From Emticicia sp. CRIBPO (lineage in GTDB: Bacteria > Bacteroidota > Bacteroidia > Cytophagales > Spirosomataceae), in contig NZ_JAAAKV010000003.1 of NCBI RefSeq assembly GCF_009905725.1, positions 276,808 to 340,807 of the forward strand: a stretch of 64,000 bases of DNA, written 5' to 3'. The notes beneath the pieces are model-generated. The model was not told the DNA's origin. It searched no databases and worked only from the letters and a program-made list of their open reading frames with translations. The translations under genes and the position numbers were made by a program. Of the stretch, positions 27,827-50,726 are shown piece by piece (positions within the stretch are counted from its first letter, which is position 1; each line of letters starts with the position of its first letter).

Positions 27827-29986
27827 CTACACCTCATCAAGGTTCAGGGGCAGTTTACGTATCCTCTTACCTGTTAAAGCAAATATAGCGTTTCCTAGTG
27901 CAGGAGCAATAGGAGGTAGGCCGGGTTCGCCGACGCCGCCGGGTTTTTCCTCGTTTATTACCGCATAGGTTTCTATTTCAGGCATCTCATTGTTCCTGAG
28001 TATCAGGTAGTCATGGAAGTTGCTCTGGACACATGTCTCGTTCTCGAAGGTGATACCGCCTTTGATGGCCGCAGATAATCCCATCACTATATTCCCTTCC
28101 GTTTGGGCTTTTACATTGTCAGGGTTGACAAACATACCGCAGTCAATCACCGAAATGACTTTGTCTATTTTTACGGACTGGTCTTTTTTGGAAACAAATA
28201 CACAGGCGGCTGAAATGGAGTCAAAGGACCTGAAAATGGCCAGCCCTTTCGCTTTGCCTTCGGGTAACTTTTCATTCCAATTGCTTTTTTCAGCCAGCAT
28301 CTGGAGCACACCTTTAAATCTCGGGGCATCTCTGAGCAGGTCCAGTCTGAAAGCCAGCGGGTTTTTTCCTGCCTGATGAGCCATTTCGTCAATGAAACAT
28401 TCCTGGCCCCAGCCGAAATTGGACGCATACACAGATCTCCACCAGACGATGGGGATGGTCGTTTTTACCCTTGAATAAGACATTTTATGAACAGGAAAGC
28501 CATATTTGTGGTTTTCCTGGCTCAGTTCTTCACCCAGCCACGGATCGGCCTGGGTAGGCTGCAGTCCCTGGAAAACCTGGCCGAGGATAGATTCTCCGAC
28601 GGCCTGATGGTGTAATGCCTGAGGGCTTCCGTTCTTTCCGAGTACACCCTGCATTTTGCTCAGCATAGCCGGGCGGTAAGGCCCTTGGGAGATATCATCT
28701 TCCCTTGACCAGATCAGTTTGACCGGTTTATTAATTTTTTTGGAAATATCACAGGCTTCCAGTACAAAATCAAGATAAGCCTTACGGCCGAAAGCTCCTC
28801 CGAGAAGGGTTACATTGACTTTGATTTTATCGGCAGGTATGTTCAGGTATCCTGAAACTTCTGCCAGAGTGCCGTCCGGTCCTTGAACAGGGGCCCAGAT
28901 TTCGACGCTGCCGTCTTCTTTGACATGAACCGTGGCGTTTTCAGGTTCTATCGGGGCGTGAGCCAGGAAAGGTGTTTCGTAAATGGCCTCCAGTTTCTTT
29001 TCGCCGGCATGGTAAACCGCATCAAAATCTCCTTTTTCTTCGTGGTTGATGCCCGGTTTTTTAGCCTCTTCGTACATTTTCGCAAAGTAATCTGCTGAAT
29101 TCTGATTCAGGGTGCTTGTGCCGGCTTTCCATTCTACTTTGAGGGCTTTGGCTCCTTTCAAGGCTGCCCAGTAATTGGAGGCTACCACAGCGACCGCTTC
29201 AGACCTGGTATGCGGCATCGCCCTTTCGGATTTCATCACCTGTAAAACGCCTTTTACTTTCTTCGCTTCGGTGTCATCAATGCTGACGATGGTCTCATGG
29301 ATTTTAGGAGAATGCACCATTTTGGCGTACACCATCCCCGGAATTTCCACATCAATGCCATAAACGGCCTTGCCGCTCACCCTGTCCGGTACATCCAGAC
29401 GGGCGTTGTATTTTCCAAGGATTTTGAAATCTTTGGGGTCTTTGAGCTTCGGATTTTTCGGGATCTCGAAGGTCGCGGCCAGATCGGCCAGTTGTCCGTA
29501 GCCCAGGCTTTTACCTGAGGGCTTGTGTATGATTTTTCCGGCTTCTGCATAACATTCTGATGCCGGAGCTTTCCAGGTTTCAGCAGCGGCTTTGATCAGC
29601 AGTTCACGGGCAGCGGCTCCTGCTTTCCTGAGGGGCATCCACAGTCCTCTGACCGAACTGCTTCCTCCCGACAGCTGGCTGCCGTATTTACTGCGTCCGT
29701 CAGACTGGATGATCGTTACCTGGTCAAGGCTTACTTCCAGTTCTTCTGCCAGAAGCGAAGGCACTGCCTGGGTTGAACCCTGTCCCATATCGGGGCGGCT
29801 GTTTACCAGGGTGATTTTTCCGGTGTTATCTATGATGATGAACGGGTTGATCTCAAGAGAGAAGAACGCCGGTTTTACTTTGACGAGTGAAGAGGTTTTT
29901 GAGAAACCGTCAATGCCGATGCCTAAGCCGATACCGGCCAGACCGAGGCTTTTGAGGAAGTCTCTCCTTTGTATATTATTGCTCAT
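27827..29986 (-). CDS. Molybdopterin-binding large subunit of an isoquinoline-oxidoreductase-type hydroxylase
   Basis: A 719-residue large subunit of the xanthine dehydrogenase superfamily, IorB type. It begins with a Tat signal (QRRDFLKSLGLAGIGLGIG), so the folded enzyme is exported with its cofactors. Molybdopterin cytosine dinucleotide-binding blocks are recognisable: SRPDMGQGSTQAVPSLLAEE, GSQLSGGSSSVRG, EPENATVHV, GGAFGRKAYLDF, PVKLIWSREDD, RSVYASNFGWGQECFIDEMA and GGVGEPGLPPIAPALGNA with the catalytic Glu. The small [2Fe-2S] subunit gene lies 24 nt upstream. Substrates of this group are N-heterocycles or aldehydes; not determinable here. Confidence 0.9.
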   Translation of the reverse strand: MSNNIQRRDFLKSLGLAGIGLGIGIDGFSKTSSLVKVKPAFFSLEINPFIIIDNTGKITLVNSRPDMGQGSTQAVPSLLAEELEVSLDQVTIIQSDGRSKYGSQLSGGSSSVRGLWMPLRKAGAAARELLIKAAAETWKAPASECYAEAGKIIHKPSGKSLGYGQLADLAATFEIPKNPKLKDPKDFKILGKYNARLDVPDRVSGKAVYGIDVEIPGMVYAKMVHSPKIHETIVSIDDTEAKKVKGVLQVMKSERAMPHTRSEAVAVVASNYWAALKGAKALKVEWKAGTSTLNQNSADYFAKMYEEAKKPGINHEEKGDFDAVYHAGEKKLEAIYETPFLAHAPIEPENATVHVKEDGSVEIWAPVQGPDGTLAEVSGYLNIPADKIKVNVTLLGGAFGRKAYLDFVLEACDISKKINKPVKLIWSREDDISQGPYRPAMLSKMQGVLGKNGSPQALHHQAVGESILGQVFQGLQPTQADPWLGEELSQENHKYGFPVHKMSYSRVKTTIPIVWWRSVYASNFGWGQECFIDEMAHQAGKNPLAFRLDLLRDAPRFKGVLQMLAEKSNWNEKLPEGKAKGLAIFRSFDSISAACVFVSKKDQSVKIDKVISVIDCGMFVNPDNVKAQTEGNIVMGLSAAIKGGITFENETCVQSNFHDYLILRNNEMPEIETYAVINEEKPGGVGEPGLPPIAPALGNAIFALTGKRIRKLPLNLDEV

Positions 29987-37069: not shown

Positions 37070-38707
37070 TTATTTTACTTTTTTCCCTTCCATCTGCCTG
37101 CCCCCCTGGTACAGGATCAGTTTTTCGGTTTTCCCTGCAGCATCTTTAAAAAACTCCACTTTGGCGTCCACTACTTTCAGAAAGAACTTCGTCGGAGATT
37201 CGGCAAACAATTCGTTTTTCCCCTGGCCTGTGGCTTGCCCGAAGAGCCGTGAGCCCTCACTGGTAATGGTCAGAACAAACCCGGGAGCGAGCTCGTAACC
37301 GCCGGCGTAAGTTTTTAATACTTCTTCCTCTACCTTTATTTCAGCAGGAGCGGCTGTGCTCTCGTTCGTCAGATTCCATACCGTTTGTGAGCCACGGTCA
37401 GTGGAAATGACCTTGTTCACTTTTCCTTTATCATCATATCTGAACTCCAGTTTTGTAAAAGCATCATCAAAAAAGAACTTATCTTTTTCATAAGCCTTGA
37501 TCCGGAACTTAGGGTTTCCTGCTCTCTGGGAATACAGTTTTTTATCTTCAAAAGTGATGGTCCTTTTTGCCCCTTCTTCATTGACAAAAACACCTTCATA
37601 ACCTTTCAGAACAGATTCAGATACGCTGATTTCCTTATTTTCATAGGGTTTTCCGATAGCGGCTGCTGCGATTCTGATGGAAACATCGTCGGGCGAAACG
37701 CCCGTAGAATTGGAGAATACGGCTACAAAAACATCTTCCTGTGGCAGATAAATACCATTGGTCAGAAAACCGTTGATACCGCCACCGTGTTCAATGGTCG
37801 GGCTTCCCTGGATGTCGCTTAAAGACCAGCCGTAGCCATAGCTGGTATCTTTCCCATCCACCAGTCTGTATTTTTTAAAGGCTTGCTGAAGGGTTTCTTT
37901 TTTGACCAGTTTGTAGGCATGAACGGCCTTATTCCATTTGAAAAGGTCTTCAACGGTAGACATGATCGAACCGGCCGCATAAGGCAGTTTCATGCTCAGA
38001 AAAGCGGAGTTATTGACACCGTTTTCGCCCGGGTCATATCCGGAAGCACGGTTTCTGATGATCCTGTCATTGTCTCCGTAATAAGAGTTCGTCATGCCCA
38101 AGGGCTTGAAAAATACTTCTTCCAGATATTCGGGATAGGTTTTCCCTGAAACCTTTTCGATGATATACCCCAGTAAAAAATAGCCTGAGTTGTTGTATTT
38201 CCACTTTGTTCCCGGGGTGAATTCCATCGGCTGATCTTTGAAAACATTGATGAGCTCCTGCGGTTCCATGTCTTTACGCATCAGGTCCATAAACTCCTTC
38301 ATGCCGGTATAGCTTTTAATGCCTGAAGTGTGGGTCAGTAAATGCTCAATGGTGATTTTATGGCCCTGGGTAGGGTAGTCCGGCAGAAATTTGGTGATTT
38401 CGTCCTGAAGAGACAGTTTTCCCTGCTCCATGAGTTGCAGAATAGCTACCGCCGTAAACTGCTTGGTGATGGAGCCGATCCTGAAAACATGGTCCGTTTT
38501 CATGGGGATGTCCAGTTCAATGTTGGCTTTACCTAAGGCTTTTTTATAAATGATCTGGCCGTTTTTAGCGACCAGGGCAGTGGCTCCTGACGGTGCTTTT
38601 CCGAATTTTTCATCAAGCAGCTGATCGAATTTTACGGACTCCTTGCTTTGGGCAAACAACAATTGTGAATAAAACAGGAGAATAAACAAGTAAGGGATTT
38701 TTTTCAT
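37070..38707 (-). CDS. Exported serine hydrolase (class C beta-lactamase / D-peptidase family)
   Basis: A 545-residue penicillin-binding-like hydrolase. I start at ATG 38707, which gives a signal peptide (MKKIPYLFILLFYSQLLFAQ); an in-frame TTG at 38740 would only add 11 residues before it. Active-site blocks: SITKQFTAVAILQ (Ser-x-x-Lys), the Tyr-Asn pair in KYNNSGYFLLGYI, and EHGGGINGFLTN (HGG in place of KTG). About 200 C-terminal residues form an extra beta-rich region (FEDKKLYSQRAGNPKF and later repeats of that type). Such proteins are carboxypeptidases, esterases or beta-lactamases; not resolved here. The Dabb gene lies 29 nt upstream. Confidence 0.87.
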   Translation of the reverse strand: MKKIPYLFILLFYSQLLFAQSKESVKFDQLLDEKFGKAPSGATALVAKNGQIIYKKALGKANIELDIPMKTDHVFRIGSITKQFTAVAILQLMEQGKLSLQDEITKFLPDYPTQGHKITIEHLLTHTSGIKSYTGMKEFMDLMRKDMEPQELINVFKDQPMEFTPGTKWKYNNSGYFLLGYIIEKVSGKTYPEYLEEVFFKPLGMTNSYYGDNDRIIRNRASGYDPGENGVNNSAFLSMKLPYAAGSIMSTVEDLFKWNKAVHAYKLVKKETLQQAFKKYRLVDGKDTSYGYGWSLSDIQGSPTIEHGGGINGFLTNGIYLPQEDVFVAVFSNSTGVSPDDVSIRIAAAAIGKPYENKEISVSESVLKGYEGVFVNEEGAKRTITFEDKKLYSQRAGNPKFRIKAYEKDKFFFDDAFTKLEFRYDDKGKVNKVISTDRGSQTVWNLTNESTAAPAEIKVEEEVLKTYAGGYELAPGFVLTITSEGSRLFGQATGQGKNELFAESPTKFFLKVVDAKVEFFKDAAGKTEKLILYQGGRQMEGKKVK

Positions 38708-38736
38708 GGGCTTGGTTTTAAGGTTATTGATGTGAT

Positions 38737-39027
38737 TCAATAAGGAATATAATCAATTTCCTGGAAATCAGTGACTTCATTTTTCCAGAATTGCTCTACA
38801 AAATATACATGGTCAGGGTGGCTGGAATAGCCATCGTATAGCTCCTGGTTGTCGAATTCCATGGAAATACCAAAATCGAAAGGGCTTTTCGGGCTGGTTT
38901 GTCTCAGTATCTCGAAGTTTTTAACCCCCGGAATGGCTTCCAGTTTCCTGACTTCGTCAAAAAACTGTTGTTCTTCCTGTGAGCCAAGGGTATGTTTAAG
39001 TTTTAAAATGACGGAATGGCGTATCAT
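38737..39027 (-). CDS. Dabb (stress-responsive alpha/beta-barrel) family protein
   Basis: A 96-residue ferredoxin-like dimeric barrel. It begins IRHSVILKLKHTLGSQEEQQ and has VKNFEILRQTSPKSPFDFGI and DGYSSHPDHVYFVEQFW, the family's recurrent blocks. Dabb proteins are small, often stress-induced, and act as cyclases or unknown accessory proteins. It is just upstream of the serine hydrolase gene, likely on one transcript. Confidence 0.85.
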   Translation of the reverse strand: MIRHSVILKLKHTLGSQEEQQFFDEVRKLEAIPGVKNFEILRQTSPKSPFDFGISMEFDNQELYDGYSSHPDHVYFVEQFWKNEVTDFQEIDYIPY

Positions 39028-39200
39028 CGTTTAATCGTTTTTTTATCAAACCTACTCTATTTTAGTGTCAAAATCAATGCCTTCCCGCTTTTAATCAGAT
39101 GTATTTTCACCGGTAATCTTCGAATTTTAAAATTAATCCGGCCAGGTTTTATGAAAATTTCAGATTATTTGTATTTTCGAAAACTAAAACACCTGAGCCC

Positions 39201-39560
39201 GTGGAAAATATACTAAAAATCATCAACGCAATTCTGATCATCTTCGCAGTTTATATGGGACTCAGACAAGGCTGGGCCATGGCTTCGGGAAAACCTGAAA
39301 TGCTCACTATGTTCGGCAAATGGGACATACAGAAAAACGGAGTGATGGTGTTGGGTGGCCTTACCATTTCAGGGGCTGTCCTGACACTTATACCACAGAC
39401 ATTTTTATGGGGCAACTTCATCACCGCCTGTGGTATACTTTTTATCATGGCATTGCATCTGACCCACAAAGACTTAAAAGGGGTGGCCGTTGAACTGCCT
39501 TTTTTGTTTTTGTCTCTTGTGATCATTTACCTGCAGCATCCTTTGACCAGACAGTCCTGA
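39201..39560 (+). CDS. DoxX-like small integral membrane protein
   Basis: A 119-residue protein with four hydrophobic segments (about residues 4-20, 46-63, 70-86 and 95-112). It starts with GTG at 39201 (ENILKIINAILIIFAVYMG); no upstream ATG in frame. The order LRQGWAMASGKPEML, then KWDIQKNGVMVLGGLTISG and FITACGILFIMALHLTHKD fits the DoxX/DUF-type four-helix family, whose roles include quinone- or oxidative-stress-linked redox at the membrane. It lies 26 nt upstream of the Na+/H+ antiporter gene and probably opens the operon containing bestrophin and the LCIB-type protein. Confidence 0.7.
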   Translation: MENILKIINAILIIFAVYMGLRQGWAMASGKPEMLTMFGKWDIQKNGVMVLGGLTISGAVLTLIPQTFLWGNFITACGILFIMALHLTHKDLKGVAVELPFLFLSLVIIYLQHPLTRQS

Positions 39561-39586
39561 TTGTATACTTATTTTAATCCTGAATT

Positions 39587-41197
39587 ATGCATCACAATTT
39601 ACTGCTGATACTGTTTTTACTTTTTATTGTTTTCATGCTCATCATGATAGGGCAGAAAATCAAGGTTTCTTATCCTATTTTGCTGGTTCTGGCAGGTTTG
39701 GCAATCGGTTTTACCCCCGGCATGCCGCTTGTCAGTATTGATCCGGAGCTGATCTTCCTTATTTTCCTGCCGCCACTTTTGTACGAAGCGGCCTGGTTTA
39801 CTTCCTGGGGTGATTTCTGGGAATGGAGACGCCCGATTGGTATGCTGGCGTTCGGCCTGGTGATTATCACTTCACTGGTGGTGGCATTTGTATCGGTTCA
39901 GCTGATTCCCGGCTTTACAATGGCCCTTGGCTTTTTACTGGGAGGGATCATTTCTCCGCCCGATGCTGTGGCGGCTACTTCGGTTTTGAAGAATGTCAAA
40001 GTACCTAAAAGGGTAGTGACCATTCTGGAAGGGGAGAGCCTGGTCAATGATGCTTCCAGTCTGATCGTCTTCCGGTTTGCCCTGGCGGCGGTTATCACAG
40101 GTCAGTTTTCATTGCAGGCTGCTGTTTCGGATTTTTTCGTAGTGTCTGCCATGGGTATTGTCATCGGCCTGGTGGTGGCCCATATTGTTTATGTCATTCA
40201 CCGGTTTTTCCCGACCACCTCCAATATTGATACGGCCCTGACGCTGATGACGCCGTATTTTATGTACATGGCCGCTGAGCAATTTCATTTTTCAGGAGTT
40301 ATGGCGGTGGTGAGCGGAGGTTTGTTTTTGTCATACCGGTCGCATGAAATACTGACCAGCGGCTCAACACGGCTGCAGGCCTACGGAGTCTGGTCTACTA
40401 CCATATTTGTATTGAACGGACTGGTGTTTATCCTGATCGGACTTGAACTTCCGGTGATTGTGGCGGACCTCGGCGGATATTCTGTCGGAGAGGCCATCGG
40501 TTACGGACTGATCATCAGCCTCGTGGCCATTGTGGTCAGGATGTTGTGGGTGTTCCCGATTGCCTATGTGCCGAAATGGTTCGGACAGGTAGTGAGAATG
40601 GACCATAAAAATCCTACCTGGAAAGCCCCGACAGTGGTGGGCTGGGCCGGTATGCGTGGCGTGGTTTCACTGGCTTCTGCTTTGTCTGTCCCTGTATTAC
40701 TGAATAACGGACAGCCCTTTCCTCATCGTAACCTTATTCTCGTTATTACCTTTATAGTGATCCTGGTTACACTGGTTTTTCAGGGTTTAACGCTTCCGTT
40801 CCTGATCAAATGGCTTGGCATTGTCGAGATTGATGATGTTATTCCCGAAGAAGAACAGGAGGCCGGGATTCAACTGAAACTGAAAAAAGCGGCTTTAGCG
40901 AGACTTACAGAACACTATGCCGGTGAAATTGAAGAAAATGAGCTGGTAAGGTTTCTTAAAAAGGACCTGGAAGATGATATTTCAAGCACGAGTCAGTGGC
41001 TGGAGTCACTGGAGTGTGAAGACAAAGACAAACAGGAACTTGAGGTTTATAACCGGGTACTGGCCGATCTGTACCAGGTAAAAAGAAAGGAATTGTTCAG
41101 ACTGAAGAAATCAAAAGAGTTTTCGGATGAAGAGATCCGTAAACAGGAGGCTTACCTCGATCTTGACGAAGCCAAAAACACTCAAACCCAACATTAA
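39587..41197 (+). CDS. CPA1-family Na+/H+ antiporter
   Basis: A 536-residue monovalent cation/proton exchanger with about 12 membrane helices in residues 1-415 and a hydrophilic, Lys/Glu-rich cytoplasmic tail of about 115 residues. The transport motifs are clear: GGIISPPDAVAATSVLK and EGESLVNDASSLIVFRFAL with the Asn-Asp pair of electroneutral CPA1 exchangers, and FLPPLLYEAAWFTSW near the N-terminus. It exchanges cytoplasmic Na+ or K+ for protons and so sets internal pH. The bestrophin gene begins 2 nt after its stop, a tight operon link. Confidence 0.9.
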   Translation: MHHNLLLILFLLFIVFMLIMIGQKIKVSYPILLVLAGLAIGFTPGMPLVSIDPELIFLIFLPPLLYEAAWFTSWGDFWEWRRPIGMLAFGLVIITSLVVAFVSVQLIPGFTMALGFLLGGIISPPDAVAATSVLKNVKVPKRVVTILEGESLVNDASSLIVFRFALAAVITGQFSLQAAVSDFFVVSAMGIVIGLVVAHIVYVIHRFFPTTSNIDTALTLMTPYFMYMAAEQFHFSGVMAVVSGGLFLSYRSHEILTSGSTRLQAYGVWSTTIFVLNGLVFILIGLELPVIVADLGGYSVGEAIGYGLIISLVAIVVRMLWVFPIAYVPKWFGQVVRMDHKNPTWKAPTVVGWAGMRGVVSLASALSVPVLLNNGQPFPHRNLILVITFIVILVTLVFQGLTLPFLIKWLGIVEIDDVIPEEEQEAGIQLKLKKAALARLTEHYAGEIEENELVRFLKKDLEDDISSTSQWLESLECEDKDKQELEVYNRVLADLYQVKRKELFRLKKSKEFSDEEIRKQEAYLDLDEAKNTQTQH

Positions 41198-41199
41198 GC

Positions 41200-42204
41200 A
41201 TGAATACCGGAAATCATTATAAACTGAGTGAGTTCCTGATCTGGACAAGACGGGACATTTACACGCTGATCGTACTGGCGTTGATCCCCACGGTGCTTTA
41301 CCAGGTTCTGGATATCAAATGGCTGGCTATTCCGTGGGTGCCTATTGCCCTGATCGGTACCGCCGCTGCCTTTATTGTCGGATTTAAGAACACACAAACG
41401 TACAACCGGCTGTGGGAAGCCCGCCAGATATGGGGAGCGATTGTTAACCTCAGCAGGTCCTGGGGCATTATGTCAAGGGATTTTACGGCAGGAAGCCTGC
41501 CGGATAAGGAGGCGGCAGAGATTCACAGACAGCTGATCTACAGACACTGTGCCTGGCTGACAGCCCTCAGGTATCAGCTCCGCGAACCTCGCAGCTGGGA
41601 GAATCTTGAGAAAAGCTATTTCAAAGAATACAGGAAGTTTTATACCGTAGCCGAAAGAGACGGCAAGCTGGAAGAAGAACTCAGAAAGTTTCTGACCGCT
41701 GAAGAAGCTGATTATGTACTCAGCAAAAAGAACAGGGCAGTTCAGATCATGGCGTTGCAATCCGGACACCTCAAAAGCCTGAAAGAGCACGGTTATGTGG
41801 AGTTACTGAATTATGTGGAGCTGGAGAATATCCTGGTAGCCCTCATTGCCGAGCAGGGCAAAAGCGAAAGGATCAAGAATTTTCCTTATCCGAGACAATT
41901 TGCCAGCATCAATCTCTTTTTTATCTGGCTTTTTGTGATCATGCTGCCGTTTGGAATGCTCAACGAGTTTCAGAAGCTGGGAGACCACTTTGTCTGGCTT
42001 ACCATTCCGTTCAGTGTCGTGGTTTCATGGGTGTTCACCTCGATGGAGAAAGTGGGGGAGAGCACCGAAAATCCGTTTGAGGGCGGTGCCAATGACGTCC
42101 CCATTACCTCTATGAGCAGGACCATCGAAATAGACCTCCGTGAAATGCTGGATGAAAAAGACCTTCCTCCGGCCATTACCCCCAGCCACAATATCCTGAT
42201 GTAA
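41200..42204 (+). CDS. Bestrophin-family channel protein
   Basis: A 334-residue bacterial bestrophin. Four membrane segments are expected: near residues 25-45, 46-68, 235-252 and 258-280. The family core is visible in VGFKNTQTYNRLWEARQIWG and in LIYRHCAWLTALRYQLREPRSW, then FPYPRQFASINLFFIWLFVI and PFSVVVSWVFTSMEKVGEST with ENPFEGGANDVPITSMSRTIE. Bestrophins assemble as pentamers; animal and algal ones conduct anions such as chloride or bicarbonate, whereas a characterised bacterial one prefers cations. The neighbouring LCIB-type gene, 18 nt downstream, favours bicarbonate here as inference only. Confidence 0.9.
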   Translation: MNTGNHYKLSEFLIWTRRDIYTLIVLALIPTVLYQVLDIKWLAIPWVPIALIGTAAAFIVGFKNTQTYNRLWEARQIWGAIVNLSRSWGIMSRDFTAGSLPDKEAAEIHRQLIYRHCAWLTALRYQLREPRSWENLEKSYFKEYRKFYTVAERDGKLEEELRKFLTAEEADYVLSKKNRAVQIMALQSGHLKSLKEHGYVELLNYVELENILVALIAEQGKSERIKNFPYPRQFASINLFFIWLFVIMLPFGMLNEFQKLGDHFVWLTIPFSVVVSWVFTSMEKVGESTENPFEGGANDVPITSMSRTIEIDLREMLDEKDLPPAITPSHNILM

Positions 42205-42222
42205 AACTTAAATGATAAAATC

Positions 42223-42972
42223 ATGAATCCAATTGAAACTGTAAGAAAATTTTACCCGAATGCCGAAACCACCATTGATACCGTCAACAAATTCCTGGAT
42301 GTGGTAGAGCATCTCCTGGGCTATAAAACCCACCAGCTGATGCATGCCGACTCCATGTGTTGTGATGATGTCAATTCTATCCAATACCCTCCCAGGGCTT
42401 ATGAAATGCTCGGTCCTTTCAGCATGGGTGGTCTGAACGGCTTTCCTTTTGCCGGGATAACCGGTATGAACGCCTTCGCCCACCATGTGCCTGAAGACGG
42501 TGCCGTCGTGGTTTTTTATGCTCCTCACATCGGCATTACCCATGATGGAAAAATAGGGGAGATCAGCCGGATAGGGCAATCGGCCAATTCTGCCTGCTGC
42601 GGTGCGGCCAGGGGGGCTCTGGCTAAATTGCTGGCCAATGAGATCGTGGAGGGCCACATGTCAGACATGGACTACCAGATGAATACCATTGAGCAGATAT
42701 TTCTGAGGCAGGCTGACAGGATCATCCGGGCCGAAAACCAGGTGTTTGAAGCTACTGAAGTGATGTATGAGGCGATTGACGAAAGAATACAGGAACTGGT
42801 AGCAAAGACCAGCTATCCCTGCAGGCATGTGATCCTGATCGGAGGTATTTTTATCAACGGAGATAAGGATATGGGTTCATTCTGTTCCTACAAACGGTTT
42901 GAGTACCTGGATCTGCAGACCAACGAAAGAACGAGCATGATGAAGGAATTCTATGAACATCAACCCGTCTGA
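42223..42972 (+). CDS. LCIB-type (theta-class) carbonic anhydrase-like protein
   Basis: A 249-residue cytoplasmic protein (no signal). It matches the LCIB/LCIC and diatom theta-carbonic-anhydrase pattern as I know it: HADSMCCDDVNSIQYPP with a Cys-x-Asp unit (Cys46/Cys47, Asp48), GLNGFPFAGITGMNAFAHHV, VFYAPHIGITHDGKIG (His102), and GQSANSACCGAARGALA (Cys125/Cys126). The zinc ligands of this class are Cys, His, Cys, with an Asp next to the first Cys; all can be placed. A C-terminal VILIGGIFINGDKD then SYKRFEYLDL also fits. Expected reaction: CO2 hydration, though several relatives are inactive alone. It follows the bestrophin gene by 18 nt. Confidence 0.8.
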   Translation: MNPIETVRKFYPNAETTIDTVNKFLDVVEHLLGYKTHQLMHADSMCCDDVNSIQYPPRAYEMLGPFSMGGLNGFPFAGITGMNAFAHHVPEDGAVVVFYAPHIGITHDGKIGEISRIGQSANSACCGAARGALAKLLANEIVEGHMSDMDYQMNTIEQIFLRQADRIIRAENQVFEATEVMYEAIDERIQELVAKTSYPCRHVILIGGIFINGDKDMGSFCSYKRFEYLDLQTNERTSMMKEFYEHQPV

Positions 42973-43032
42973 AACGGAATCATTCTTTCAGATTGGCGGT
43001 TTTATTTATTTCCGATCTTACCGAATTAAAAT

Positions 43033-43920
43033 ATGTCTAATATCAATCTTATTATAGAAGAAAGGCCGCACAACATCGGCAATTTCATGGTGGGGCGTCT
43101 CCTGCCTTTCAGAGGCAAAAGAATGGTGGGGCCGTTCATTTTTATTGACCATATGGGCCCTGCTCAAATGAATGACCACCAGAACATTGATGTGGCTCCG
43201 CATCCGCATATCGGTTTGTCGACCCTTACTTTTCTTTTTGAGGGCAACATGATGCACAAGGATACTCTGGGCACTTCGGTGGAAATCAAACCCGGACAGG
43301 TCAACTGGATGACCGCCGGAAAAGGCATTGTGCATTCTGAAAGGACCCCTGAGTATCTCAGACACTCAGAAAAAATGCTTCACGGCCTTCAGATCTGGAT
43401 TGCCCTGCCTAAGGACCTTGAACAGATGGAGCCTTCGTTTTTTCATGCTGATGAAGAAGAAATTCCTGCCTGGGAAGAAGAGGGTATTGCGTATAAACTC
43501 ATTGCGGGAACTGTCCTCGGACATACTTCGCCTGTACCCGTCTATAGTCCTTTATACCTGCTTGAACTGAAAAGTACAGGGCAGCAGACCGTAAAGCTGG
43601 GAGATCACCTTTTCGGGGAATCGGCTTTGTATATCCTTGAAGGGGGGATTGAAAGTGAAGGGGCTGTTTTTGAGCCTAAAAGAATACTGGTGGCGAAAGA
43701 CAGTACCTTGTGTGAATTTACCATGCTGGCCAATACCACCATTTACATTTTCGGAGGGGAGCCTTTTCCTGAGGAGCGGTTGATTTTCTGGAACTTTGTA
43801 GCTACCAGCCGCGAACTGATCGAAGATGCCAAGACCAAATGGCTGGAACAGACTTTCCCGAAAATTGAAGGTGAAACTGATTTTGTGCCGTTACCACCGC
43901 CTGTTTTACCTCAGAAATAA
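43033..43920 (+). CDS. Pirin-family protein
   Basis: A 295-residue double-cupin protein. The N-terminal cupin holds the metal site in FIDHMGPAQMNDHQNIDVAP then HPHIGLSTLTFLFEGNMMHK, with later ligands around TAGKGIVHSER; the C-terminal cupin is weaker (HLFGESALYILEGGIE). Bacterial pirins are quercetin dioxygenase-like enzymes or redox-responsive regulators of partner proteins. It follows the LCIB-type gene by 60 nt on the same strand and may belong to its transcript; its stop nearly abuts the convergent YdeI-like gene. Confidence 0.87.
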   Translation: MSNINLIIEERPHNIGNFMVGRLLPFRGKRMVGPFIFIDHMGPAQMNDHQNIDVAPHPHIGLSTLTFLFEGNMMHKDTLGTSVEIKPGQVNWMTAGKGIVHSERTPEYLRHSEKMLHGLQIWIALPKDLEQMEPSFFHADEEEIPAWEEEGIAYKLIAGTVLGHTSPVPVYSPLYLLELKSTGQQTVKLGDHLFGESALYILEGGIESEGAVFEPKRILVAKDSTLCEFTMLANTTIYIFGGEPFPEERLIFWNFVATSRELIEDAKTKWLEQTFPKIEGETDFVPLPPPVLPQK

Positions 43921-43921
43921 C

Positions 43922-44563
43922 TTATTTCCTGACGTACTTCCAGTTCCTGATTTTGCCTTCAGCCATCCATTCGATGGCCTGAAGAAGCCTCTTTTTGCGG
44001 GTATCTTGTGATTTGGCTTCGGTTATCCAGTCGACGTAATCCTTCTTGTTGGAATAGCTGAAATTTGAGAAAGTGGCTGCTGCCTCTTCATTCCGGGCCA
44101 GTTCTTCTGTCAGATCATCGGGAATGACCAATGTTCTGGAGGCTGCGGGTACCGATGTTTTAGGCTTTTCAGTTTTAAGGGTGCTGTTGGTTTCCATCGC
44201 ATGCCTGATATACCGGGAGAGGATCTCCGGAGAGGGGAGGTCTTCTATGGCCGTAATTCTTCCCAGGTGTCCCATTGATGTCTTGCCTACGTCTTCCAGG
44301 ATATTTTCGGGATCATTCATGTCTTTGGCATTCCAGAACCCAAACGAGCAATGGGCCTTGAATGCCGCCATGCTGCACAGGATCTTTTTATTATACTCAA
44401 AATGCGGGAATCCCCATTTGATGGTTTCTGTCACTTCAGGGCAATTGGCGTGCACCAGCTCTCTCAGGTATTCCAGTATGGGTTTGGCAAATGGTGCAGC
44501 TTTCAGGATATAGGCGTCTATGCCGGGGTGTTTCATTGGTGATTCAGGTTTTTTCAGAGACAT
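43922..44563 (-). CDS. YdeI-like DUF1801 / OmdA-type protein
   Basis: A 213-residue cytoplasmic protein. Residues ~10-125 form a DUF1801/YdhG-like domain (GIDAYILKAAPFAKPILEYL, CPEVTETIKWGFPHFEY, CSMAAFKAHCSFGFWNAK), and the C-terminal part is the OmdA/YdeI domain with VPDDLTEELARNEEAAATFS-like text and YVDWITEAKSQDTRKKRL. These proteins are common and poorly understood; links to stress and antimicrobial-peptide tolerance have been reported for some. Its stop is 2 nt from the stop of the convergent pirin gene. Confidence 0.82.
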   Translation of the reverse strand: MSLKKPESPMKHPGIDAYILKAAPFAKPILEYLRELVHANCPEVTETIKWGFPHFEYNKKILCSMAAFKAHCSFGFWNAKDMNDPENILEDVGKTSMGHLGRITAIEDLPSPEILSRYIRHAMETNSTLKTEKPKTSVPAASRTLVIPDDLTEELARNEEAAATFSNFSYSNKKDYVDWITEAKSQDTRKKRLLQAIEWMAEGKIRNWKYVRK

Positions 44564-44655
44564 TCAGATTAACTTTAGTTTCGTTATCCAGATACGCTAT
44601 CTGCATAACGAAAAGTATACCGGCCGGAAAAGCGGAGAACAGGAACGGGGAGTGA

Positions 44656-44949
44656 TTAATGTGAAGTACTCGTTCTCAATAACTCAAGACTCCTGCTAAA
44701 GTCAGTCCGGCTTACGATTCCGATACACTCATCCTTCAAAAAAATACTGACTTCTTCTCCTTGTTTCAGAAGACGCAGCCGTCCTTTGAAAGCCTGGGAT
44801 TCATCCATACTGAGAAAATCCAGCAGCTTTTTCCCTGATTCTCTTCTGCAGGCCTGTTCATCGTCCTGATCAAGAATGACCAGCCTGATCTTTTTTCCTT
44901 CCTTTTCGAAAGCAAAAGTATAATTTTTAGTCAGTCGATGATGCAGCAT
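44656..44949 (-). CDS. Small protein overlapping the M48 peptidase gene, unknown function
   Basis: A 97-residue charged protein (MLHHRLTKNYTFAFEKEGKK, then IRLVILDQDDEQACRRESGK and ECIGIVSRTDFSRSLELLR). The repeated beta-strand-like segments and charge suggest a small soluble domain; no family was recognised. It overlaps the end of the M48 peptidase gene by 23 nt on the same strand, so translational coupling and a functional link with the peptidase are likely. A shorter version starting at a later codon cannot be excluded. Confidence 0.6.
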   Translation of the reverse strand: MLHHRLTKNYTFAFEKEGKKIRLVILDQDDEQACRRESGKKLLDFLSMDESQAFKGRLRLLKQGEEVSIFLKDECIGIVSRTDFSRSLELLRTSTSH

Positions 44950-49658: not shown

Positions 49659-50726
49659 TTAATCTGTAGTGTTTTGTGAAAATGCTTTGAACTTCAGCAC
49701 CGCTTTTTTCAGCGATGCTTCCTTCCTTTTAATCAGCGGGGTGTAAGGCGAGGTTTCGACTTCAAGACTTTTACCCTTCTTTGCTTTTTGCCAGGTGCCT
49801 GCCAGTTTTCCTTCAGAAATGATCATGTGATAAGAAGAAGAGATTTCAGAAATCTGCTTTTTAGAAATTTCACTGTCGGTGATGGCTTCTTTGTTTTTAT
49901 ATGACATGCCATACTCATCGTAATCAGGCATCAGGAAAGTAGGCAATGTTTTAGGAACAACGGAAATATCCTGAGGAAGAAAAATGTACTCCAGGCCATC
50001 AATCTGCCTTTTTTCAAAGTCTTTGGAGAGCTCAGGCAATCCGGCACGGGCCTCAGTAAGGCTTAATCCTGACCAGTAACAGAAGTCCTGGATCGTAGCA
50101 GGGCCGCGGGTCACAAAGTAACGGTTCAGAAACTGATGAAGGGCTTCTTCCCTGGTCATCGGAGGCACAGCCGGTACGCGTTCTTCCAGCAAGGCATAGG
50201 TAAATTGTTTTCCGGACCGCGGACCGCTACAGATCAGTCCTTCAAGTTCTGCCTGCATCATAATGCCGGTCAGTCTTACCCCGTCTGCTTCGATGCCGTT
50301 TTTGCTCAATTCCGCCTTGATGTCGTTCCTGATCAGGAACTTTCCTCCTTCCAGGCTTTTGACGACAACCTCATTACATTTTTTAAAGACCGACGCGTCC
50401 AGGCCTTCTTTTTTATACTGGTAATTATTGATGGCCGATACCCTGGGGGCAGTCAGGGCCAGCAGCCACCGGATGTCTTCCGGAGCCACAAAATGCCAGG
50501 TGGGACGCATCAGGTGGGTTCTCAGGATTTTACCTTCATTGAATACCTGCTCAATATCCGCATCATTAAATCCAGGCAGGCGAAGTCCTATTGCCCATTT
50601 AGCCATGGCATATTCCTGCGACTGCATCGCTACCATCCACCGGACGATTTCTTCCGGTTTTGTAAATTTTGTGCTGATAATCTGTTGATTCAGTAACCTG
50701 TGGCTCAGGATTTCGTAATGCGTCAT
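49659..50726 (-). CDS. AlkZ-like winged-helix DNA glycosylase
   Basis: A 355-residue protein of the HTH_42/YcaQ-AlkZ family, which excises alkylated bases and unhooks DNA crosslinks. The N-terminal catalytic stretch AMQSQEYAMAKWAIGLRL carries the Gln-x-Gln motif (Gln35-Ser-Gln37 by count), followed by RTHLMRPTWHFVAPEDIRWL and, later, GPATIQDFCYWSGLSLTEAR and KGKSLEVETSPYTPL, typical family blocks. A -7 element lies 22 nt upstream. HEAT-repeat gene downstream in the same unit. Confidence 0.85.
   Translation of the reverse strand: MTHYEILSHRLLNQQIISTKFTKPEEIVRWMVAMQSQEYAMAKWAIGLRLPGFNDADIEQVFNEGKILRTHLMRPTWHFVAPEDIRWLLALTAPRVSAINNYQYKKEGLDASVFKKCNEVVVKSLEGGKFLIRNDIKAELSKNGIEADGVRLTGIMMQAELEGLICSGPRSGKQFTYALLEERVPAVPPMTREEALHQFLNRYFVTRGPATIQDFCYWSGLSLTEARAGLPELSKDFEKRQIDGLEYIFLPQDISVVPKTLPTFLMPDYDEYGMSYKNKEAITDSEISKKQISEISSSYHMIISEGKLAGTWQKAKKGKSLEVETSPYTPLIKRKEASLKKAVLKFKAFSQNTTD

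Follow-up and report, generated by a model that had tools for sequence, protein, structure and literature searches.

Among the closest known systems to the one described here are the LCIB/LCIC proteins and the bestrophins BST1-3 of the CO2-concentrating mechanism of Chlamydomonas, which are reported as interacting and co-expressed (PMC6708349). In the literature considered, LCIB-type enzymes appear as algal or diatom proteins, and a 2026 survey describes most of the rarer carbonic anhydrase (CA) classes, including the theta class, as thought to be mainly restricted to diatoms and protozoa (PMC13098186). The same two protein families are encoded side by side in a 64,000-nucleotide (nt) stretch of the genome of Emticicia sp. 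CRIBPO (Bacteroidota), the whole of which is referred to here as the window. The pair recurs in other Bacteroidota, usually behind a gene for a K+ channel or a cation/proton antiporter. These observations are read here, with a probability of roughly 0.45, as a horizontally mobile module for ion and pH homeostasis rather than for carbon uptake. The features of the window that bear on this reading are the following:

39201..39560, + strand: DoxX-like small membrane protein, 119 amino acids (aa), GTG start (DoxX_2 profile)
39587..41197, + strand: CPA1-family Na+/H+ antiporter, 536 aa (Pfam and NCBIfam profiles)
41200..42204, + strand: bestrophin, a relative of KpBest, 334 aa (Pfam profile and alignment to a solved structure)
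41359..41385, + strand: bestrophin codons 54-62, with the predicted neck T54, F58, F62 (I62, I66, F70 in KpBest)
42223..42972, + strand: predicted LCIB-type (theta/beta-like) CA, 249 aa (profile, phmmer, model)
42358..42366, + strand: LCIB codons 46-48, predicted zinc ligand C46, plus D48 (alignment)
42484..42486, + strand: LCIB codon 88, predicted zinc ligand H88 (alignment to PtLCIB4)
42595..42600, + strand: LCIB codons 125-126, CC pair with the third predicted zinc ligand (C126 by conservation)
43033..43920, + strand: pirin, 295 aa, 60 nt past the LCIB gene, membership doubtful (Pfam profile)

The product of 42223-42972 is an LCIB-family protein and a predicted CA, an assignment that rests firmly on profile, sequence and model comparisons. 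Its match to LCIB_C_CA (PF18599) reaches 4.5e-69 and 232.6 bits, against a cut-off of 25, and phmmer with the window protein retrieves 6kfs (6.8e-33) and PtLCIB4 (5b5y; 1.5e-24), as well as LCIC and LCIB. A structure model built from a 39-sequence alignment (predicted local distance difference test score, pLDDT, 89; predicted template modelling score, pTM, 0.88) matches PtLCIB4 (2.4e-17) and 6kfs (1.4e-16) in Foldseek with template modelling (TM) scores of 0.77-0.78, the value for PtLCIB4 being 0.77; 5k5w, 5b5x and Chlamydomonas LCIB/LCIC are also matched, and canonical beta-CAs, which rank next, are not significant. C46, H88 and C126, which we take from the LCIB family to be the zinc ligands, are kept together with D48 and R116 in the alignment of all 46 bestrophin-linked LCIB relatives, while among 34 unlinked LCIB rows C46 is found in 32, H88 in 33 and C126 in 33. 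The window H88 aligns with the histidine taken as PtLCIB4 H88, mutated in PDB 5b5z (the numbering offset is inferred). Fold and zinc-site residues are therefore common to the window protein, PtLCIB4 and 6kfs, although identity is only 27-29% and the first ligand stands in Cys-Cys-Asp in 41 of the 46 linked relatives, versus Cys-Ser-Asp in PtLCIB4 and 6kfs. No signal peptide was seen by eye on the LCIB protein.

Neighbourhoods were surveyed in several sets of loci. A contig scan with the window LCIB gave 46 named loci, biased to close relatives, and LCIB was found in 31/296 genomes of a phylum sample, 18/395 of a class sample and 24/291 of an order sample. The tally of 81 distinct loci comprises the 46 named loci, the phylum- and class-sample loci and the window; L081 and L101 were left out as the same loci as L038 and L047, and 10 of the 31 phylum-sample LCIB genomes, seen with 1.5 kb flanks, lie outside it. 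The genomes examined number 67 of 69 with LCIB, G973 and G990 of the order sample lying outside the set. Of the 81 loci, 47 have a same-strand bestrophin gene no more than 2.3 kb upstream of LCIB, as do 41 of the 46 named loci, with the two profile matches at most 140 nt apart in 43 of the 47 (exceptions L034, L047, L059 and L060). The host genome of the window holds one LCIB match and four bestrophin matches; pairing in 41 of 46 named loci is thus more than chance would give. One locus (L147) has the inverted order, LCIB then bestrophin. Family match, Cys/His/Cys site and conserved neighbourhood, on which the initial annotation had made its LCIB-bestrophin proposal depend, are all present, and the presumption of a non-photosynthetic host agrees with the result for RuBisCO given below. 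The protein families are each known; neither the LCIB-bestrophin pairing in bacteria nor the alternation of K+ channel and antiporter beside it is described among the open-access matches listed.

Several candidates were set aside in this survey. L150, whose bestrophin lies 3.2 kb downstream, was kept out of the linked set, and an apparent LCIB-bestrophin fusion (582-aa frame, G349) was rejected since the extension overlaps the bestrophin, which sits in another frame. Acidobacteriota were not accepted as an independent second phylum: the only genome with a hit among 149 searched is the query metagenome-assembled genome itself. At L139:6892-7656 (G1034), a stop codon interrupts the LCIB frame, probably marking a decayed copy.

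Upstream of the bestrophin, 29 of the 47 linked loci have a gene for a K+ channel and 11 one for a CPA1 antiporter; no locus combines the two, and seven have neither. The initial annotation had named the antiporter as the partner; it is one of two alternatives, the K+ channel being the commoner. Among the 43 linked loci with more than 3 kb of upstream sequence the figures are 27/11/0/5 (Fisher p 7.6e-07, relatedness not corrected). In 36 of the 40 loci with a cation mover, its end is separated from the bestrophin match by no more than 200 nt (exceptions L034, L035, L059 and L069), and neither K+ channel nor CPA1 occupies that place where an upstream bestrophin is lacking (0/34 loci; L073 is without upstream sequence). 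On the tree, the antiporter state needs seven gains or losses, of which at least two are forced by well-supported branches, many forks being weak; the gene in the place upstream of the bestrophin has probably been exchanged repeatedly. The K+ channel partner is a membrane protein of about 225 aa (Ion_trans_2, PF07885; the L066 copy matches at 1.4e-10). Its selectivity filter reads T(S/T)IGFGD in 26/26 copies from named loci; the L079 copy reads GYGD at the filter. A structure model of the channel was too poor to search (pLDDT 62.6). Other cation movers adjoin LCIB at two of the 34 loci that lack an upstream bestrophin. In Dyadobacter sp. 3J3 (L075, 7998-11239), LCIB is directly followed on the same strand by genes for a KefF/KefG-like flavoprotein (1.7e-62) and a KefC-like antiporter (1.7e-199), both NCBIfam matches below equivalog cut-offs, and the bestrophin is 6.6 kb upstream of LCIB. 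At L112:4678-7695, an NhaC-like antiporter (Pfam 3.9e-26, far below the NCBIfam cut-off), a beta-CA and LCIB follow in series, so that two CA classes adjoin.

The best sequence match of the window bestrophin among solved structures is 4wd7 (7e-26, both halves aligned); 4wd7 and 4wd8 we take to be KpBest, the Klebsiella bestrophin. KpBest is a Na+ channel with the neck I62-I66-F70, the I66F change shifts its selectivity toward Cl-, and the neck of animal bestrophins is I-F-F (PMC8496536). The window bestrophin belongs to the same family by sequence, whereas its neck is T54-F58-F62 rather than I-I-F, with the second and third residues as in I-F-F and Thr as the first. The T-F-F neck is found in the window and in 44/44 linked bestrophins scored (44 of 46 linked relatives; L068 and L103 are too partial). 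In five distant Bacteroidota paralogues, one of them from the window genome and all aligned apart (L120, L127, L128, L129 and L136), the middle neck residue is Leu (four) or Met (one). It is plausible from these alignments that the window bestrophin is anion-selective, as a trait of its subfamily.

The host genome (6.06 Mb, 39 contigs) is 97.81% complete and contains no match to the RuBisCO large subunit (PF00016). Its one beta-CA match (NCBIfam carbonate dehydratase) lies directly 3' of a SulP-family transporter gene (L115:5772-7999, contig G000:C23), a pair that starts 3.0 kb beyond the end of the window. Beta-CA matches over the cut-off occur in 47/47 genomes searched, the window's included (weak or partial in G311, G332 and G338), and LCIB as the only CA was therefore rejected.

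From the gene identities, their recurrent adjacency, the alternation of cation movers and the conserved CA-site and neck residues, we infer the following mechanism. The predicted cytoplasmic LCIB-type CA would hydrate respiratory CO2 to bicarbonate and a proton, and the bestrophin, predicted to be anion-selective, would let bicarbonate (probably also chloride) out down the inside-negative potential. The adjoining cation path, a K+ channel in most relatives and CPA1 here, would move K+ or Na+ for charge balance. The net effect would be a loss of cation and bicarbonate while protons stay, that is, controlled acid loading, which could serve to adjust pH or volume under alkaline or electrophile stress. 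A tentative, more specific version, considered possible but rather unlikely as a whole, is an acid loader analogous to Kef, in which LCIB would make H+ and HCO3-, the bestrophin would export HCO3- and the cation mover would be interchangeable (K+ channel, CPA1, KefC once), giving protection against electrophiles or alkaline conditions. No acid-loading system of this kind is described among the listed open-access literature matches.

The initial annotation had proposed an inorganic-carbon or pH module, of which the pH and ion side is favoured here and the carbon side is not. In the carbon version the bestrophin would admit bicarbonate, LCIB would interconvert it with CO2 for carboxylases and the antiporter would balance protons. 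That version draws on the recurrence of the pair and on the alga, for which an interaction of LCIB/LCIC with BST1 and BST3 and shared low-CO2 expression are reported, and human bestrophins are said to pass bicarbonate (PMC6708349). It is nevertheless judged unlikely, because the host already has a SulP/beta-CA pair, because beta-CA matches are general in the genomes searched, because RuBisCO is not matched in the host and because the commoner neighbour moves K+ rather than protons. By general physiology, bicarbonate would flow out through a passive anion channel when the membrane potential is inside-negative, and such a channel could not accumulate it. The ion and pH reading is favoured on these grounds, the SulP/beta-CA pair and the expected export of bicarbonate, and because the partners move monovalent cations. 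That the bestrophin is a KpBest-like channel for Na+ or mixed cations, with a cation leak and a CA only loosely linked, would agree with the best match among solved structures being a Na+ channel; this is given a low probability, since Phe stands at the KpBest I66 position in all linked bestrophins scored, a change which favours Cl- in KpBest (PMC8496536), and since such a channel would duplicate the function of the K+ channel next to it.

The genes may also travel as one block within a stress operon (regulator, SDR, DoxX, aldehyde dehydrogenase) with no joint mechanism. The varying upstream content would agree with this, as would the LCIB tree, whose mixture of Bacteroidota families makes the block appear horizontally mobile, and L061, which has upstream genes and LCIB without a bestrophin. 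That the bestrophin and LCIB stay paired as their flanks change, in two gene orders, and that the place before the pair is taken by one of two cation movers and never by both, make mere hitchhiking improbable. Some members of the LCIB family have been reported without CA activity. A window LCIB of this kind, gating or tethering the bestrophin, would fit the interaction reported for the algal proteins (PMC6708349), yet this has hardly any probability, given that the Cys/His/Cys site, D48 and R116 are complete in 46/46 linked relatives and that activity is ascribed to PtLCIB3 and PtLCIB4 of diatoms (PMC9614477).

The following observations weigh against an ion and pH module. The pair is found in only 12 of 67 LCIB genomes from the phylum, class and order samples, whose selection did not depend on similarity to the window (G000, G277, G292, G398, G485, G504, G349, G548, G1069, G920, G1066 and G1032), and 34 of the 81 LCIB loci lack a bestrophin upstream; L061 keeps DoxX, SDR and SnoaL-like genes with LCIB but not the bestrophin. 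Seven of the 47 linked loci have neither cation mover (L068 and L102 are cut by contig ends), and three of five close relatives of the K+ channel (E <1e-50, phylum sample) are not beside a bestrophin and LCIB. The cation partner in the window itself is an antiporter, which could run in either direction, and the Kef and NhaC links amount to one locus each. The neck Phe is also present in 13/13 unlinked subfamily members scored and was therefore rejected as a mark of LCIB-linked bestrophins, and the neck begins with Thr instead of Ile. Linkage is confined to one clade of the LCIB tree, so adjacency may have been inherited as a single moved block, and the correlation of distances given below would result from shared inheritance alone.

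In a first LCIB tree, all 47 linked rows fall in one 55-row clade (99/99). A second tree, without the long-branch L113, L085 and L087, the interrupted L139, the weak L146, the repeats L138 and L142 and six near-duplicates, is divided by a branch (98/91) into a part with 46 linked and 12 unlinked rows and a part with 30 rows, all unlinked. Within the clade, Weeksellaceae, Sphingobacteriaceae, Chitinophagaceae and Spirosomataceae/Cytophagaceae are intermixed. There is no LCIB match in G1025 or G1072, two sampled congeners of the window genome, and the LCIB gene is thus accessory in this genus. The mixing of families in the tree and the two congeners without LCIB suggest horizontal movement. Plasmid carriage was rejected, as the plasmid collection gave no match. 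LCIB distances correlate with those of the bestrophin (Spearman 0.89, 48 loci, 0/1000 permutations as high), of the K+ channel (0.72, 30 loci) and of the antiporter (0.68, 10 loci).

Wider neighbours were tallied as same-strand profile matches in the 43 linked loci with more than 5.4 kb of upstream sequence, the window included. An AraC/TetR regulator is found in 21 of them (some AraC matches are weak, 38-47 bits in L041, L047 and L103), SDR in 20, aldehyde dehydrogenase in 12, a SnoaL-like small protein (sub-threshold SnoaL_2 match) in 24 and DoxX, counted from 6.5 kb before to 2 kb after LCIB, in 29, while each of these families occurs in at most one of 32 loci that lack an upstream bestrophin. 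Families of this sort often have a connection with oxidative or electrophile stress, and as neighbours they speak for the ion and pH reading. Two K+ channel genes without the pair lie beside OsmC, DJ-1/PfpI (Pfam) and a TetR-like gene recognised by eye (L119:6372-8991), and after AraC and SDR (Pfam) and before a DoxX-like gene recognised by eye, with no Pfam match (L118:5229-8265).

In the window, the five + strand open reading frames are spaced by 26, 2, 18 and 60 nt, and the antiporter carries the SPPDAV and LVNDAS motifs, as initially described. The antiporter matches Na_H_Exchanger (Pfam, 9.3e-57) and NCBIfam a_cpa1 (1e-106, 357.6 bits against a cut-off of 279.6), and the naming of its neighbour as a bestrophin is borne out by Bestrophin_2 (PF25539; Pfam, 2.3e-45) and by the alignment to a solved bestrophin. 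The DoxX_2 match is marginal (Pfam, 5.4e-06, 26.9 bits against a cut-off of 26.3). The last gene matches Pirin (Pfam, 2.2e-33) and had been listed in the run; none of the 46 named loci has a pirin match near LCIB (phmmer E 1e-4; L033 holds only about 0.24 kb downstream), so it was rejected as a member and probably lies outside. Just 5' of 39201 there is no match to a Bacteroidota-type promoter consensus, and 38700-44700 holds five sigma-70-type sites, against 7.6 in shuffles. A DUF1801/OmdA protein is encoded near LCIB both in the window (43922-44563, - strand) and at L083:7599-8240 (+ strand), on opposite strands relative to LCIB, possibly by chance. Elsewhere in the window are genes for a protein with xanthine dehydrogenase/aldehyde oxidase-type molybdopterin-binding domains (27827-29986, - strand) and an AlkZ-like DNA glycosylase (49659-50726, - strand).

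Among known systems, the Kef systems (KefC/KefF, KefB/KefG) come near in proposed outcome, and in the Dyadobacter locus LCIB precedes KefF/KefG-like and KefC-like genes. Kef couples K+ efflux to proton influx, acidifies the cytosol and protects from electrophiles (PMC10224563). Unlike Kef, the window antiporter is a CPA1 protein without a TrkA_N match, and no flavodoxin-like family is present in the run. In the pairing of SulP/BicA-type transporters with beta-CA, an anion transporter adjoins a CA, as here, but the families are unrelated. Compared with the algal mechanism, which draws on the same two protein families, the window host is without a RuBisCO match, the genes stand in an operon-like run, mostly accompanied by a K+ channel or cation/proton antiporter, and the membrane would be the plasma membrane rather than the thylakoid. 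The same enzyme and channel families are thus tied together in Bacteroidota, and to the movement of K+ or Na+/H+, which provides a genetic argument that the LCIB-bestrophin partnership serves pH and ion balance, and the pair offers a simple bacterial system for asking what LCIB and bestrophin do jointly. If the Kef-like acid-loading version is true, the algal LCIB-bestrophin partnership would have a non-photosynthetic bacterial counterpart, which possibly represents its older function.

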